NCBI GenBank assembly: GCA_028870275.1
Contig: JAGWPY010000046.1
Coordinates: forward strand, 1 to 38,154
DNA: 38,154 nucleotides
Direction of reading: 5' to 3'
From: Gammaproteobacteria bacterium
GTDB taxonomy: Bacteria; Pseudomonadota; Gammaproteobacteria; Steroidobacterales; Steroidobacteraceae
Shown piece after piece: positions 24,278 through 29,071 of this stretch. Every line of letters starts with the position of its first letter. The stretch's first letter is position 1. The notes under the pieces were generated by a model that ran no database searches, was not told the DNA's origin, and worked only from the letters and a program-made list of their open reading frames with translations. Made by a program: the position numbers and the translations under genes.

Positions 24278-24508
24278 ATGAGCGAAGCCGCCGCGAAATC
24301 CGCCGTCGAACTCGAGCTGAAGCGGCTCGAACGGCGCCTCGAGGACCTGATCTCCACGGTCGGCCAGATCAAGGAGGAGAATCGCGCGCTCCGCCAGCGT
24401 CAGGAAGCCCTCACCAGCGAGCGCGCGAGCCTGCTGCAGAAGAACGAGCAGGTACGCGCGCGCGTAGAGGCGATGATCGGCCGGCTGAAGTCGATGGAAC
24501 AGCAATGA
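24278..24508 (+). CDS. TIGR02449-family coiled-coil protein
   Basis: A 76-aa, highly charged, heptad-rich protein (ELKRLERRLEDLISTVGQI onward) that forms one continuous coiled coil, the TIGR02449 type commonly found just upstream of zapA in gammaproteobacteria. A ZapB-like partner role in cell division is plausible from size and position but is inference. The stop overlaps the zapA start (ATGA). There is no Shine-Dalgarno before the ATG, and a promoter -10 lies 8 bases upstream. Confidence 0.88.
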   Translation: MSEAAAKSAVELELKRLERRLEDLISTVGQIKEENRALRQRQEALTSERASLLQKNEQVRARVEAMIGRLKSMEQQ

Positions 24509-24819
24509 GCGAAGGTTCGACGCGCGTCTCGGTGCGCATCCTCGAGAAGGAATATCAGATCAACTGCCCGGCCGAGGAGCGTTCCGCCCTGCTCGACTCG
24601 GCCGAATTCCTCAACGCCCGGATGCGCGAGATCCGCGACAGCGGCAAGGTCGTCGGCCTCGACCGGATCGCGGTAATCGCGGCGCTGAACATCGCCAACG
24701 AACTGTTGCGCGGCCGCCGTACGGACACCACGGTCGATTCGGAGATCGGCGGACGCTTGCGTATCCTGCGGGAGCGGGTAGAGTCTGCACTGGAGAAGGG
24801 GCAGCAGCTCGAATTCTGA
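24505..24819 (+). CDS. zapA: cell division protein ZapA
   Basis: A 104-aa FtsZ-associated protein that bundles FtsZ filaments at midcell. The N-terminal VSVRILEKEYQINCPAEE forms the globular part. The conserved LDRIAVIAALNIANELL leads into a C-terminal coiled coil (about residues 60-100). The ATG overlaps the upstream gene's stop. 6S RNA and fau follow directly, the arrangement also seen in E. coli. Confidence 0.94.
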   Translation: MSEGSTRVSVRILEKEYQINCPAEERSALLDSAEFLNARMREIRDSGKVVGLDRIAVIAALNIANELLRGRRTDTTVDSEIGGRLRILRERVESALEKGQQLEF

Positions 24820-24849: not shown

Positions 24850-25040
24850 TGGCGCCGCCTGCGGTGTTCGATGCGGATCGGGTTACCTCTCGACCCTAAT
24901 TTGTAAACCCCAGGGGCCTTTGCTTGCTGGCAACATTGTGCAAGTCCGTCTCGAGCGGAAAGCCTTAATTGCCGCAGTGAGCCCCACCTGTTGCTCAGGT
25001 CGGGAGCAACGGTCCAAAACGGCACATGCGGGTGGCGCCA
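24850..25040 (+). ncRNA. ssrS: 6S RNA
   Basis: About 190 bases between zapA and fau, the classic position of 6S RNA, which binds sigma-70 RNA polymerase holoenzyme in stationary phase. The ends pair: GGCGCC at 24851-24856 with GGCGCC at 25034-25039, continued inward by GCCTGCGGTGT against ACATGCGGGT with a few wobbles. The central part contains the conserved GAGCGGAAAGCCTTAA-type block (about 24954-24969), matching the 3' side of the 6S bubble (AAGCCTTAA). Exact ends are estimated from the terminal stem. A weak promoter (TTCTGA, 17 bases, TGGATT) lies just upstream. Confidence 0.88.
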
Positions 25041-25062
25041 TCAGTTCCTCGATCGATCCCTC

Positions 25063-25671
25063 ATGACCCACGACAAATCGTCGCTGCGCGCGACGCTGCG
25101 GGAACGCCGGCGCGCGCTCCCTCCACATGACCATGCGGCCCGCTCGCGCCGGGCCGCCGCCGCACTCGCGGCCGAGCGCGGATTCAAGGCCGGCGCGCGT
25201 CTTGCGGCCTATCTTCCCGTCGCCTTCGAGCTCGACACTGCCGCGCTGCTCGCCGCCGCGCGCCGCCGTGGCGTACGGGTCTACGTCCCGGTGGTGATCG
25301 ACCGGCGCAGGCGGCGGATCGAATTCCGCCCGCTCGACGGCCGCCTGCGTCGCGGCGCGTACGGGATTCCGGTACCGGAGCGCGCCCATGCGGCGCTCGG
25401 CGCTCGATGGTTCGACCTGGTCGCGGTCCCGCTCGTCGGCGTCGATCGCCGGGGTCGGCGGCTCGGCATGGGTGGGGGCTATTACGATCGCGCGTTCGCG
25501 TTCCGCCGTCTGCGCCGCACCTGGCGCGGACCACGGCTCGTCGGGCTCGCCTTCGATTGCCAGCGCGTCGACTCGATCGGCGCTGAAGCCTGGGATCTCG
25601 GCCTCGATGCACTCGCGACCGAATCCGGATTGACCGACTTCGGTGGGCACCTCGACGGGGGGAAGCGATGA
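25063..25671 (+). CDS. fau: 5-formyltetrahydrofolate cyclo-ligase
   Basis: Converts 5-formyl-THF to 5,10-methenyl-THF with ATP (ygfA in E. coli). The 202-aa protein has the N-terminal basic LRATLRERRRALPP, FRPLDGRLRRGAYGIPVPE, and the signature GVDRRGRRLGMGGGYYDR. The ATG at 25063 is preferred; the longer frame runs into the 6S RNA. It directly follows 6S RNA, as in E. coli, where the two are co-transcribed. The stop overlaps the EVE-domain gene (ATGA). The protein is unusually Arg/Ala-rich, in line with local GC content. Confidence 0.95.
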   Translation: MTHDKSSLRATLRERRRALPPHDHAARSRRAAAALAAERGFKAGARLAAYLPVAFELDTAALLAAARRRGVRVYVPVVIDRRRRRIEFRPLDGRLRRGAYGIPVPERAHAALGARWFDLVAVPLVGVDRRGRRLGMGGGYYDRAFAFRRLRRTWRGPRLVGLAFDCQRVDSIGAEAWDLGLDALATESGLTDFGGHLDGGKR

Positions 25672-26132
25672 ACCATTGGCTGATGAAATCCGAACCGTCG
25701 ACATTCGGCATCGACGACCTGGCGGCGGCTCCGCGCAAGACCACCGGCTGGGACGGCGTACGCAATTTCCAGGTGCGCAACATGCTGCGCGACGAGTTCC
25801 GCAAGGGAGATCAGGCGTTCTTCTACCACTCGAGCTGCCCGGAGCCCGGCATCGCGGGCATCGTCGAGATCGTCGGGGAAGCCTATGCGGATCCGACGGC
25901 GCTCGATCGCAAGCATCCCCACTACGACCCCGTGGGAAGCGCCCAGGATCCTCGCTGGTATGCGGTCGACGTGCGCCTGGTGCGCAAGTTCGATCGTTTG
26001 ATCTCTCTCGATCTCTTGCGCGCTCATGCCGCCGGTGCCTTGCGCGACATGCTGATCCTGCGGCGGGGGAATCGGCTCTCGGTAACGCCGGTCACGCGAG
26101 AGGAATGGGAGTTCATCCTTTCGCTGAAGTGA
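25668..26132 (+). CDS. EVE-domain (PUA-like) protein
   Basis: A 154-aa EVE-domain protein of the YTH/PUA superfamily, a fold that binds modified bases in RNA or DNA. Family motifs: MKSEPSTFGIDDL at the N-terminus, WDGVRNFQVRNMLR, KGDQAFFYHS and GIAGIVEIVGEAYADPTA. It is the whole protein, so a stand-alone EVE, which often sits in housekeeping contexts. The start overlaps fau (ATGA). Function is unproven. It ends 113 bases before the micro-gene. Confidence 0.92.
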   Translation: MNHWLMKSEPSTFGIDDLAAAPRKTTGWDGVRNFQVRNMLRDEFRKGDQAFFYHSSCPEPGIAGIVEIVGEAYADPTALDRKHPHYDPVGSAQDPRWYAVDVRLVRKFDRLISLDLLRAHAAGALRDMLILRRGNRLSVTPVTREEWEFILSLK

Positions 26133-26182: not shown

Positions 26183-26210
26183 TTGTAATTTGGGTATTCG
26201 TGTATATACT
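26183..26210 (+). promoter_or_regulatory. sigma-70 promoter of the lysine-rich micro-gene
   Basis: TTGTAA (26183-26188, 4 of 6) and TATACT (26205-26210, 5 of 6) with a 16-base spacer, in the most AT-rich stretch of the region. The predicted start near 26217 gives a leader of about 29 bases that includes a GGAG Shine-Dalgarno at 26235-26238, 7 bases before the ATG. Confidence 0.65.
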
Positions 26211-26245
26211 CGGTCCCCGGACTAACCCGACAACGGAGTATTAAC

Positions 26246-26311
26246 ATGGCAGCGAAAGCGAAGAAGGCGAAGAAGAAGGTAGCCAAGAAGAAGGCCGCCA
26301 AGAAGAAGTAA
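26246..26311 (+). CDS. 21-residue lysine/alanine-rich histone-like micropeptide
   Basis: A 21-codon frame, ATG to TAA, encoding a peptide of 12 Lys, 7 Ala, one Val and the initiator Met, arranged as K-runs separated by A (ending KKAAKKK). It has every mark of a real gene: a good promoter, a GGAG Shine-Dalgarno at 7 bases, a stop, and a perfect hairpin terminator just after it. Eleven of 12 lysines use AAG. The composition matches the tail of histone H1-like or HU-tail proteins, so binding to DNA or RNA is likely. No family is claimed. It could also be a leader peptide, but no attenuator pairing with the terminator is apparent. Confidence 0.75.
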   Translation: MAAKAKKAKKKVAKKKAAKKK

Positions 26312-26327
26312 GCCTTCGTTAGGCTAC

Positions 26328-26360
26328 CGACTGTGCCCGCGCAAGCGGGCACAGTCGTTT
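26328..26360 (+). terminator. Rho-independent terminator after the micro-gene
   Basis: A perfect 13-base-pair stem (26328-26340 with 26345-26357) closed by a GCAA tetraloop and followed by TTTCT. It isolates the micro-gene from rpiA, which begins 17 bases later. Confidence 0.82.
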
Positions 26361-26376
26361 CTGGGGATCGGAATTG

Positions 26377-27036
26377 ATGCAGCCACGCGACAAGAAGAAA
26401 CTCGCCGCCTCGGCGGCCCTGCAATACCTCGAAGACGACATGCTCGTCGGCATCGGCACCGGATCGACCGTCGAGGAATTCCTGCTCGCCATCAAGGAAC
26501 GCGGCCTGAGGCTGCGGGGCGCGGTCTCGAGCTCGCGCGCCACGTCGGACCGGCTGCGCGCACTCGGCATCGAGGAATTCGCTCTGAACGACGTCGGCGA
26601 TCTGCCTCTCTACGTCGACGGCGCGGATGAAGCGACGCCGCAAGGCGCGCTGATCAAGGGGGGCGGCGCGGCGCTCACCCGTGAAAAGGTCGTCGCCGCC
26701 GCCTCCGCTCGCTTCGTCTGCATCATCGACGACAGCAAGCTGGTCGATGTGCTCGGACGCTTTCCGTTGCCCGTCGAGGTGATCCCGATGGCGCGCTCCT
26801 ACGTCGCGCGCCGGCTCGTCGGACTGGGCGGGCAACCGGTCTGGAGAGAAGGGGTCGTGACCGACAACGGCAACGTGATCCTGGACGTGCACAACCTGCG
26901 CATCGTCGATCCGCGGTCGCTGGAACAGGAAATCGACCGCATCGCGGGAGTGGTCACGGTCGGATTGTTTGCGCATCGCGGCGCGGACGAGATTCTCGTC
27001 GGCGGCGAACAGGGAGTGCGCCGGATCCTGCCCTGA
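26377..27036 (+). CDS. rpiA: ribose-5-phosphate isomerase A
   Basis: Interconverts ribose-5-phosphate and ribulose-5-phosphate in the pentose phosphate pathway. The 219-aa length matches the family. Motifs: GIGTGSTVE (phosphate binding), DGADE (catalytic Asp region) and [11 protein letters not shown]. The ATG at 26377 is preferred over a TTG one codon earlier; a GGGGA stretch lies upstream. It follows the micro-gene terminator closely and shows no separate -10, so it may depend on read-through or a promoter overlapping the hairpin. It converges with kup, 28 bases apart. Confidence 0.96.
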
Positions 27037-27064: not shown

Positions 27065-28939
27065 CTAGATCTCCACCCTCGTGCCGATCTCGACCACCCG
27101 TCCGGGCGGGAGCCCGTAGAAATCGGCCACCACCTGCGCATTGAGCGCCATCTGGATGAAGGCGCGCCGTCTCAACGGAGGCAGCTCGGAGCGTCGACCC
27201 GGGATCAATTCCTCGCGGCTGAGGAAGTAAGTCGTCCTTTCCGGGTCGAACGGGATGCCGTGACTCTCGGCGAGACGCAGGATTTCGACGATGTTCGGCT
27301 GGTCCATGAAGCCCATCTGCGCGACCAGCCGCACGATGCCCTCCCCGACCTCGGTCACCGTGAGCCGCTTGGTCGGCGAGATGCGCGGCTCCTCCCGGGT
27401 CACGATCGTGAGCAGGATCACCCGTTCGTGCATCACCCGGTTGAACTTGATGTTGTTGAGCAGCGCGCGTGGGATGCCCGAGGCCTTGGCGTCGAGGAAG
27501 ACCGAGGTGCCCGGCACCCGGACCGGCGGATCCCGCTTGAGGTCATCGAGGAAGTCACGCACCGGCTTCTGTTCGCGCAGCAGACGCGCATGCAGACTGG
27601 AGCGGCCGCGCTGCCAGGTCTGCATCAGCCAGTAGATCGTCAGGCCCGCACTGAGCGGCAGCCACCCACCTTCGCCGAGCTTGGTCAGGTTCGCGAGCAG
27701 GAAGGCGATGTCGACCACGAACAGCAGCGAGAGTCCCGCGCGCAGCGGCAGACTCTCGCGGCCGTACCGCGACTTGATCAGGCTGAGCGTGAGGGGAGTG
27801 ACGATGGTCATCGCACCGGACACGGCGAGTCCGTAAGCCCCGGCGAGCGCCGCCGAACTGCCGAAGCCCACGATCAGCGCGAGAGCGGCCGCCATCAGCA
27901 CCCAGTTCATCGACGGCACGTAGATCTGACCCGCATGTTCGGCCGATGAATGCTCGACCCGCAGTCGCGGCAGCAGCCCGAGGCTCACCGCGGTCTGGGT
28001 CACCGAAAACACCCCCGAGATGACCGCTTGCGACGCGATCACGGTCGCCGCGGTCGCGAGGCCGACGAGCGGAAGAAGAGCCCAGGACGGCGCCATCAGG
28101 TAGAACGGGTTGCTGATCGCGGCCGGGTTCTCGATGAGCAGCGCGCCCTGGCCGAAGTAGTTCATCACCAGCGCGGGCATCACGACGCTCACCCAGGCGA
28201 TGCGGATCGGATACTTGCCGAAATGCCCCATGTCGGCATAGAGCGCCTCGCCGCCGGTCACGGTGAGGAACACGCCGGCGAGCACGGCGAGCGCGCCGAT
28301 CTCGTGGCTGGCGAGCATGCGCAGACCGTGGATGGGATTGAGCGCGAACAGCACCCGTGGCTCGCGCAGGATCCAGTACACGCCCATCACGGCGAGCACA
28401 CCGAACCAGCCGAGCATCACCGGGCCGAACACGCTGCCCACCGAAGCGGTCCCATGCTTCTGGATCATGAACAGACCGACGAGCACCACCATCGTGATCG
28501 GCAGCACCGGGATCGACGAGGCCGGGGCGGCGATCTGCAGGCCTTCGACCGCGCTCAACACGGAAATCGCCGGAGTGATCGCCCCGTCGGCGAAGAACAG
28601 CGCCGCGCCGAGGATGCCGAGCATGCCGTAGAGTTTCTTGCGCGGACTGGCGCGATCGGTGTTCACGACCAGCGCGGTGAGAGCGAGCACGCCGCCCTCG
28701 CCCTTGTTGTCGGCATTGAGCACGACGGCCACGTACTTGAGCAGCACCACCAGGATCAGCGACCAGAAGATCAGCGACAGTACGCCAAGCACATTTTCGG
28801 CAGTGACCGCGAGATGCGCGCCGGTGAAGCATGAAGAGACGGCGTAGAGCGGGCTCGTGCCGATGTCACCGAACACGACCCCCAGGGCGCCCAGCGCGAG
28901 CAGCGCGAGGCGTGCACCCGAGTTGCGTTCGACGGACAT
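27065..28939 (-). CDS. kup: low-affinity potassium transporter Kup
   Basis: A 624-aa inner-membrane K+/H+ symporter. The N-terminal ~440 residues carry about 12 hydrophobic segments, beginning with GVVFGDIGTSPLYA, the family hallmark. NADNKGEGGVLAL and ALFFADGAITPAISV follow. The C-terminal ~180 residues are cytoplasmic. The ATG at 28939 has no strong Shine-Dalgarno. It lies downstream of tRNA-Gln on the same strand, with a strong hairpin between them. Confidence 0.97.
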   Translation of the reverse strand: MSVERNSGARLALLALGALGVVFGDIGTSPLYAVSSCFTGAHLAVTAENVLGVLSLIFWSLILVVLLKYVAVVLNADNKGEGGVLALTALVVNTDRASPRKKLYGMLGILGAALFFADGAITPAISVLSAVEGLQIAAPASSIPVLPITMVVLVGLFMIQKHGTASVGSVFGPVMLGWFGVLAVMGVYWILREPRVLFALNPIHGLRMLASHEIGALAVLAGVFLTVTGGEALYADMGHFGKYPIRIAWVSVVMPALVMNYFGQGALLIENPAAISNPFYLMAPSWALLPLVGLATAATVIASQAVISGVFSVTQTAVSLGLLPRLRVEHSSAEHAGQIYVPSMNWVLMAAALALIVGFGSSAALAGAYGLAVSGAMTIVTPLTLSLIKSRYGRESLPLRAGLSLLFVVDIAFLLANLTKLGEGGWLPLSAGLTIYWLMQTWQRGRSSLHARLLREQKPVRDFLDDLKRDPPVRVPGTSVFLDAKASGIPRALLNNIKFNRVMHERVILLTIVTREEPRISPTKRLTVTEVGEGIVRLVAQMGFMDQPNIVEILRLAESHGIPFDPERTTYFLSREELIPGRRSELPPLRRRAFIQMALNAQVVADFYGLPPGRVVEIGTRVEI

Positions 28940-28997: not shown

Positions 28998-29071
28998 TGG
29001 CTGGGGGACTAGGATTCGAACCTAGGTAAACGGAGTCAGAGTCCGTTGTCCTACCGCTAGACGATCCCCCA
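28998..29071 (-). tRNA. tRNA-Gln (anticodon CTG)
   Basis: A 74-base cloverleaf on the minus strand. The acceptor stem TGGGGGA pairs with TCCCCCA. The D-arm contains AGCGGTAGGAC. The anticodon stem ACGGA/TCCGT encloses loop CTCTGAC with anticodon CTG, reading CAG. The T-arm has GGTTCGAATCC. The CCA end is encoded. It lies 32 bases after rpsI, probably in the same transcript. Confidence 0.96.

Follow-up and report, generated by a model that had tools for sequence, protein, structure and literature searches.

A putative 21-residue lysine-rich micropeptide gene upstream of rpiA in a Steroidobacteraceae genome, and its probable kinship with histone H1-like genes

Gene content of the region

The window, by which we mean the whole stretch of 38,154 nucleotides analysed here, comes from a gammaproteobacterium of the family Steroidobacteraceae. 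The features surrounding the micropeptide frame are listed in Table 1. The gene order is that of divergent ygfB (UPF0149) and pepP, followed by zapB, zapA, the 6S RNA gene, fau, the EVE-domain gene, the micropeptide frame and rpiA.

Table 1. Positions of genes and sequence features in the micropeptide region
Feature	Position	Strand	Basis or remark
zapB	24278..24508	+	PF06005, 32.6 bits against a cut-off of 31.5
zapA	24505..24819	+	PF05164
6S RNA (ssrS)	24853..25038	+	Rfam RF00013, 76.1 bits
fau/ygfA, 5-formyltetrahydrofolate cyclo-ligase	24991..25671 (open frame; ATG 25063 likelier start)	+	TIGR02727
EVE-domain gene, upstream of micropeptide	25668..26132	+	PF01878
-35-like hexamer TTGTAA	26183..26188	+	Read directly; within TTGCTTGTAATTT, a stretch common to many relatives
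-10 hexamer TATACT, core GTATATACTC	26205..26210	+	16-nt spacer from TTGTAA
Leader CCGGACTAACCCGACAACGGAG...	26217..26245	+	GGAG Shine-Dalgarno at 26235-26238
Micropeptide ORF, MAAKAKKAKKKVAKKKAAKKK-stop, 21 aa	26246..26311	+	Direct reading; codon pattern; distribution
13-bp GCAA-loop hairpin, probable partial terminator	26328..26357	+	Perfect stem; weak U-tract TTTCT
rpiA	26374..27036 (TTG 26374 or ATG 26377)	+	PF06026 and NCBIfam rpiA models
Kup-type potassium transporter	27065-28939	minus	PF02705
tRNA-Gln (CTG)	28998-29071	minus	Downstream of rpiA

The array zapB-zapA-ssrS-fau-EVE, often with rpiA, is a known EVE neighbourhood of beta- and gammaproteobacteria, which its authors, in the parts of their paper available here, tie to a switch between proliferative modes (PMC7641849). 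The window carries this same array together with the divergent ygfB and pepP. Between EVE and rpiA, where the window has a lysine-rich gene, those parts of the paper mention none; the terms "lysine-rich" and "small protein" are absent from its main text, and "histone" occurs in the parts available only in connection with other proteins.

Promoter, leader and coding frame

An earlier note on this DNA described a TTGTAA-16-TATACT promoter, a GGAG Shine-Dalgarno at 7 nt from the ATG, a 21-codon Lys/Ala frame and a 13-bp GCAA-loop hairpin, and on direct reading every one of these elements lies where it had been placed. The promoter matches the sigma-70 consensus at nine of 12 positions. Since this is the single sigma-70-type site found between 25400 and 27400, where shuffled sequences give an expectation of 0.4, the match by itself is weak evidence and not significant. 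The 150-nt transcript folds with a z-score of -4.65 relative to shuffles. The encoded 21-mer contains 12 Lys and 7 Ala residues, three KKK blocks and no acidic residue; AAG is used for 11 of the 12 Lys codons, and the longest A-run in the frame is 3. What exceeds chance is the conservation of the frame, the promoter core and the hairpin, and the case for the predicted gene therefore rests on comparison.

In its own genome, which is 86% complete, CGGACTAACC is present once, i.e., a second copy was not found. A search of the same genome with one long ortholog returned nothing, which says little because this query also missed three of five genomes with known orthologs. The 21-mer matched no family in Pfam or NCBIfam, and no chain in a PDB sequence search (E up to 10; with a short low-complexity query this is a weak test); one long ortholog likewise gave no PDB chain at E up to 1. 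A plasmid or phage origin was considered and rejected, the 211-bp stretch being without a match in plasmid and phage collections.

Conservation in close relatives

When 60 relatives were searched at the DNA level, 49 had a match, most of the matches within the order being AAG-rich stretches only. Genomes of the same genus and family matched in 34 of 36 cases, and the two exceptions (G014 and G028) are 71% and 74% complete. The relative loci that were read keep a constant order: a promoter core GTGTATATACTC or near to it, a leader CGGACTAACCC...GGAG, a Lys/Ala frame, the hairpin and rpiA.

Named genome contigs were scanned for promoter, leader and ATGGC only, with nothing required after ATGGC, and at least 119 loci were recovered. 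Their recorded taxonomy includes 10 Steroidobacteraceae and single Nevskiaceae or Pseudomonadales, most others being given just as Proteobacteria or Gammaproteobacteria; a few record titles among the listed loci (Klebsiella, Janthinobacterium and Planktophila MAGs) look mislabelled. Among the 119 matches listed, the frame is complete in 115 and cut by the sequence end in the other 4. These 115 frames are 14-26 aa long in 113 cases, with 61 aa in L248 and 40 aa in L227, which spans an NN gap and was retained in the counts. They end in TAA (77), TAG (26) or TGA (12), with KKK before the stop in 114. An rpiA motif lies downstream in 108 of the 119 matches listed (10 are too short to tell, and L246 has none) and an EVE motif upstream in 88 (12 too short, 19 without). 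The hairpin core follows in 110 of the 115 loci, the other five retaining 0-75 nt after the stop, and the loop of 81 of these 110 is of the GNRA type (GCAA 37, GAAA 31, GTAA 13). The frame is thus kept in close relatives, where its loss had been named by the earlier note as an argument against a gene.

Several metagenome contigs (L018, L020, L021, L022, L037, L038, L154 and L237) end at or inside the gene, as if assemblers were breaking at the repeat or the hairpin, and strain-level length variation may be hidden in this way.

Selection on the coding frame

Eighty distinct ORF DNAs provided 418 close pairs of equal length with 1-6 differences. Because the pairs share ancestry and are not independent, their 1361 synonymous and 159 non-synonymous codon differences (random placement of the same base changes gives 536 and 975) are to be read as a strong pattern and not as a p-value. 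The numbers of variable sites at the first, second and third codon positions are 3, 2 and 12 for frames of 16 aa (28 frames), 0, 0 and 8 for 17 aa (12 frames), 8, 9 and 17 for 21 aa (25 frames), and 11, 11 and 17 for 22 aa, the skew of this last group of only 6 frames being the weakest. Leader and 3′ spacer lengths occur in all phases. From this and the codon pattern, the product under selection would most simply be the peptide. The comparison supports selection on the protein, and in this respect the micro-gene of the earlier note gains strong backing from both the codon pattern and the conservation of the frame.

The same locus across the order

Sampling was anchored on rpiA, so as to avoid choosing genomes by the gene itself. 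Within the order rpiA was present in 133 of 147 genomes, and the DNA upstream of it was read in 126 genomes, 124 belonging to the order and 2 from outside, with seven members of the window's family picked by DNA similarity. Under a strict rule, a lysine-rich frame occurs upstream of rpiA in 102 of the 126. An adjacency script placed 98 of the 102 next to rpiA; G038 and G080 fail it only through the sequence end, their coordinates placing rpiA next. G148 (a stop inside a continuing repeat) and G156 (a frame not adjoining rpiA) were dropped, which leaves 100 genes from 13 families of the order and the two genomes outside. These range from 15 to 209 aa, start with MA in 96 cases, and hold two acidic residues in total.

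In the window's family (f1) the product is 15-26 aa long in all 31 genomes. Elsewhere in the order the lengths in aa are 107-150 (f2), 195 (f3), 150-169 (f4), 181-194 (f5), 47-158 (f6), 79-201 (f7), 140 (f9), 111 (f10), 109-180 (f11), 180 (f14), 20-174 (f15) and 96-209 (f16), and the two genomes outside the order have 74 and 97 aa; the 73 aa of G141, which is cut by a contig end, are a minimum. Inspection by eye of the 24 genomes with no strict match found a cut, N-masked or frame-shifted gene in 8 (f8 among them) and absence in 15, namely 7/7 genomes of f12, 3/3 of f13, four of f6 and one of f7; G044 cannot be judged. The gene, being absent from 15 of 126 genomes, is therefore dispensable in some lineages.

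A TATACT-type core precedes 93 of 99 genes, compared with 577 of 19,800 random windows (three of the six genes lacking it are in f11, two in f16 and one outside the order), and a GCCCG...CGGGC hairpin core is present at 89 of 99 loci, compared with 2160 of 20,000 random windows. Among the best 28 rpiA loci outside the order, a lysine-rich gene precedes rpiA in L271 and L296 and lies on the opposite strand in L294; none was seen in the remaining 25, L287 offering only a spurious 12-aa frame.

We define the class of this locus by a same-strand position immediately ahead of rpiA, a TATACT-type core and a leader with GGAG, along with at least 0.38 basic residues, an MA start, a basic end and almost no acidic residues. 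The window gene has every one of these features of position, promoter and leader, and composition. The long lysine-repeat proteins encoded before rpiA (e.g., L036, L129 and L082) resemble it in position, TATACT-type core, GGAG leader and basic end. They differ in being 47-209 aa long with many repeats, against 14-26 aa in the window's family, and the details of the leader differ between families. As low-complexity sequence cannot prove homology, the kinship rests on position, promoter and leader; on these grounds the micropeptide is a putative member, by position and regulation, of the H1-like gene of the locus before rpiA.

The likeness to an isolated histone H1-like tail that the earlier note drew from composition is supported by this comparison, because other families encode, at this same locus, histone-H1-like proteins of lysine repeats that reach 209 residues. 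Orthologs of that length leave little support for the ribosome-stalling poly-Lys leader which it had offered instead. The micropeptide gene is an H1-like gene added to the known zapAB-6S-fau-EVE-rpiA cluster.

Short forms and the direction of length change

Family f15 includes ten genomes with 20-57 aa, nine of them with 20-35 aa. In the RpiA tree, which is rough and built from one gene (18 of 71 inner branches are starred, f1 is not recovered as one clade and the outgroup rows lie apart), the f15 rows fall in a starred clade away from f1. Forcing all 24 short-form rows (15 from f1 and 9 from f15) into one clade is rejected (p-AU 0.00144), and forcing the f15 short forms together is not rejected (p 0.598); G148 and G156 are in the tree but were left out of the clade test, and the RpiA rows of G015 and G063 are absent from the trees. 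These results support two short-form groups that, on RpiA sequences, would not be one clade, although a single shortening followed by re-expansion is possibly also compatible with the rejected clade.

Since most families are long, we infer by parsimony that change ran from long to short; the expression of the short gene is likewise deduced from sequence. The 61-aa gene of L248 has the promoter and leader of the short forms with an rpiA motif downstream, and is intermediate between the long and short forms.

The hairpin and transcription of rpiA

The window stem-loop alone has a folding energy of -28.6 kcal/mol, and it is missing from the output of a terminator scan with a threshold of 5 T in 8. 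Of the terminator claimed by the earlier note, the perfect 13-bp GCAA-loop stem stands, but only TTTCT follows it and the scan passes it over, so that "partial terminator" fits better. The hairpin ends 16 nt (TTG start) or 19 nt (ATG start) before rpiA, which leaves no room for another promoter between them. Given this and the weak U-tract, rpiA is probably reached by read-through of the hairpin, to judge by the anatomy of the region. The gene can hence not be called self-contained, as had been proposed, with so weak a terminator immediately ahead of rpiA and a position inside a conserved cluster.

Many relatives (e.g., L027 and L113) have a second hairpin between the stop and the terminator, which is lacking in the window's genus. 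The pairing GGTAGCC/GGCTACC in the minimum free energy structure of the window transcript is missing in relatives such as L004; this pairing and one of the leader with the rpiA region were both set aside, as neither is kept in the relatives read by eye. In family f12, all seven genomes read (L118, L128, L134, L135, L143, L150 and L317) lack the gene; by eye, each has a TATAAT box a short way upstream of rpiA, as though rpiA were transcribed from a separate promoter in this family.

Known H1-like proteins

According to the parts consulted of PMC2848022, chlamydial Hc2 is a DNA-binding protein of 165-237 aa whose length is set by lysine-rich repeats; these are variable in number, as they are in the long orthologs at the rpiA locus. 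The HC2 family (PF07382) is characterized by long tandem lysine-rich repeats, whereas the window peptide has 21 aa and three KKK blocks. When 11 other members of the locus were compared with PF07382, two long orthologs scored 37.4 and 32.9 bits, under the 40-bit cut-off, and nine did not score. We do not file the micropeptide as HC2, because the 21-mer is unmatched and the two long orthologs stay below the cut-off. With NF038053 (hist_H1_lk_Burk, cut-off 80 bits) the 21-mer gave no hit, and the best other member reached 21.7 bits.

AlgP of Pseudomonas aeruginosa has a disordered lysine/alanine-rich H1-like tail, binds DNA, associates with polyphosphate granules and is linked to their spacing (PMC9239181, in the sections available). 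The likeness lies in this tail. AlgP is numbered to residue 352 and has an alpha-helical N-terminal domain and KPAA repeats, of which the 21-mer has neither. By analogy with such proteins, the micropeptide probably works like an H1 tail. A literature search found no description of the gene; most subscription papers were outside its reach, so novelty is unproven.

Proposed function and alternatives

The explanation that we favour, with reasonable rather than high confidence, is that the free 21-residue polycation is a shortened form of the histone-H1-like lysine-repeat protein found in the same place in related families, ahead of rpiA and often behind an EVE gene, and that it serves as a small disordered counter-ion for a polyanion. 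Contraction of the repeat would have left two to four KKK blocks between the MA start and the KKK-stop end. The peptide would be expressed under its own promoter, with the zapAB and 6S RNA genes nearby, and would neutralise and bridge a polyanion, in the first place nucleoid DNA, with structured RNA or polyphosphate as alternatives. Its disorder and polycationic nature are predicted from composition and kinship. By comparison with known H1-like proteins, DNA is the most likely ligand, closely followed by RNA and polyphosphate. The multivalency of 21 residues is far below that of a 150-residue tail, and the peptide might have another job.

It is unlikely, in our opinion, that the frame and hairpin form a regulatory leader of rpiA, an attenuator in which translation of the Lys codons sets read-through. 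The weak U-tract and the closeness of the hairpin to rpiA would suit such a device, and so would the TATAAT boxes of the seven f12 genomes without the gene. So too would the longest T-run after the stem core, which is at most 3 at 24 of 31 loci of the window's family but at least 4 at 41 of 48 long-form loci with a hairpin (at most 3 at 7; nine further long-form loci have no hairpin by the rule used). In the f15 short forms, however, T-runs are at least 4 in 7 of 10 and at most 3 in 3 of 10, so a short product is not tied to a weak U-tract. The distance from stop to hairpin core is 22-23 nt at 16 of 109 loci and 40-80 nt at the other 93, a variation ill-suited to ribosome-timed attenuation. 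Orthologs of up to 209 aa are no leader, the amino acids of the frame are under constraint, and from general knowledge Lys codons are not the end-product codons of the pathway to be regulated; we know of no link between lysine and ribose-5-phosphate isomerase. Leaky read-through is itself compatible with the shortened H1-like peptide. Very unlikely is a non-coding RNA or slippage signal with an AAG-rich frame arisen by chance. The leader and hairpin are indeed conserved, and 42 of the family's 78 short frames contain an A-run of 5 or 6. The window frame, however, has no A-run over 3, and the third-position bias and the survival of the frame through changes of length stand against this reading, which the codon pattern largely refutes. 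Slippage, which the earlier note had raised for the AAG-rich codons, finds little support in A-runs that are not conserved, and we set it aside for this locus if not for every frame.

That the gene is the functionless stub of a decaying long gene is more improbable still. Repeat proteins readily lose units and some genomes lack the gene altogether, but the codon pattern, its presence in all 31 genomes of the window's family (7 had been selected on DNA similarity) and the occurrence of short forms in two families that do not make up one clade all argue against decay. A polycation associated with ribosomes or RNA instead of the nucleoid is rather unlikely. Its size and charge would suit RNA binding, and the locus contains 6S RNA as well as an EVE gene, binding of modified bases being ascribed to the EVE domain (PMC7641849, in the parts available); against it stands the weak PDB test, in which the 21-mer found no chain. 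As regards the ligand, the present comparison of sequences does not separate RNA from DNA.

Going beyond the shortened H1-like peptide itself, we put forward tentatively, and with some doubt, that H1-like tails have shrunk at least twice independently to free genes of 14-28 residues, that about three KKK blocks would be the working unit, and that the peptide, a diffusible counter-ion, would belong to a growth-state switch in which it is produced along with 6S RNA and ZapAB and, through read-through, with RpiA. The natural products of this one locus span 14 to 209 residues, and these length variants are a test set for how short a working histone-like tail can be. The gene gives the impression of a histone tail pared down to a minimum, yet kept by selection. 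It is of a type that annotation would be expected to miss, and trypsin-based proteomics as well, since nearly every second residue is followed by a trypsin cleavage site.

Other lysine-rich proteins in relatives

Three genomes of the same genus (L299, L301 and L302) encode elsewhere another lysine-rich protein of approximately 115-125 aa (MAKK...KAKRP...), which could be the main H1-like protein there and carry the H1-like role. H1-like lysine-rich tails also occur in relatives on proteins which we take, from their sequences, to be adenylate kinase (L300, L306, L307 and L312), topoisomerase I (L310) and ribosomal protein bL21 (L309 and L311).
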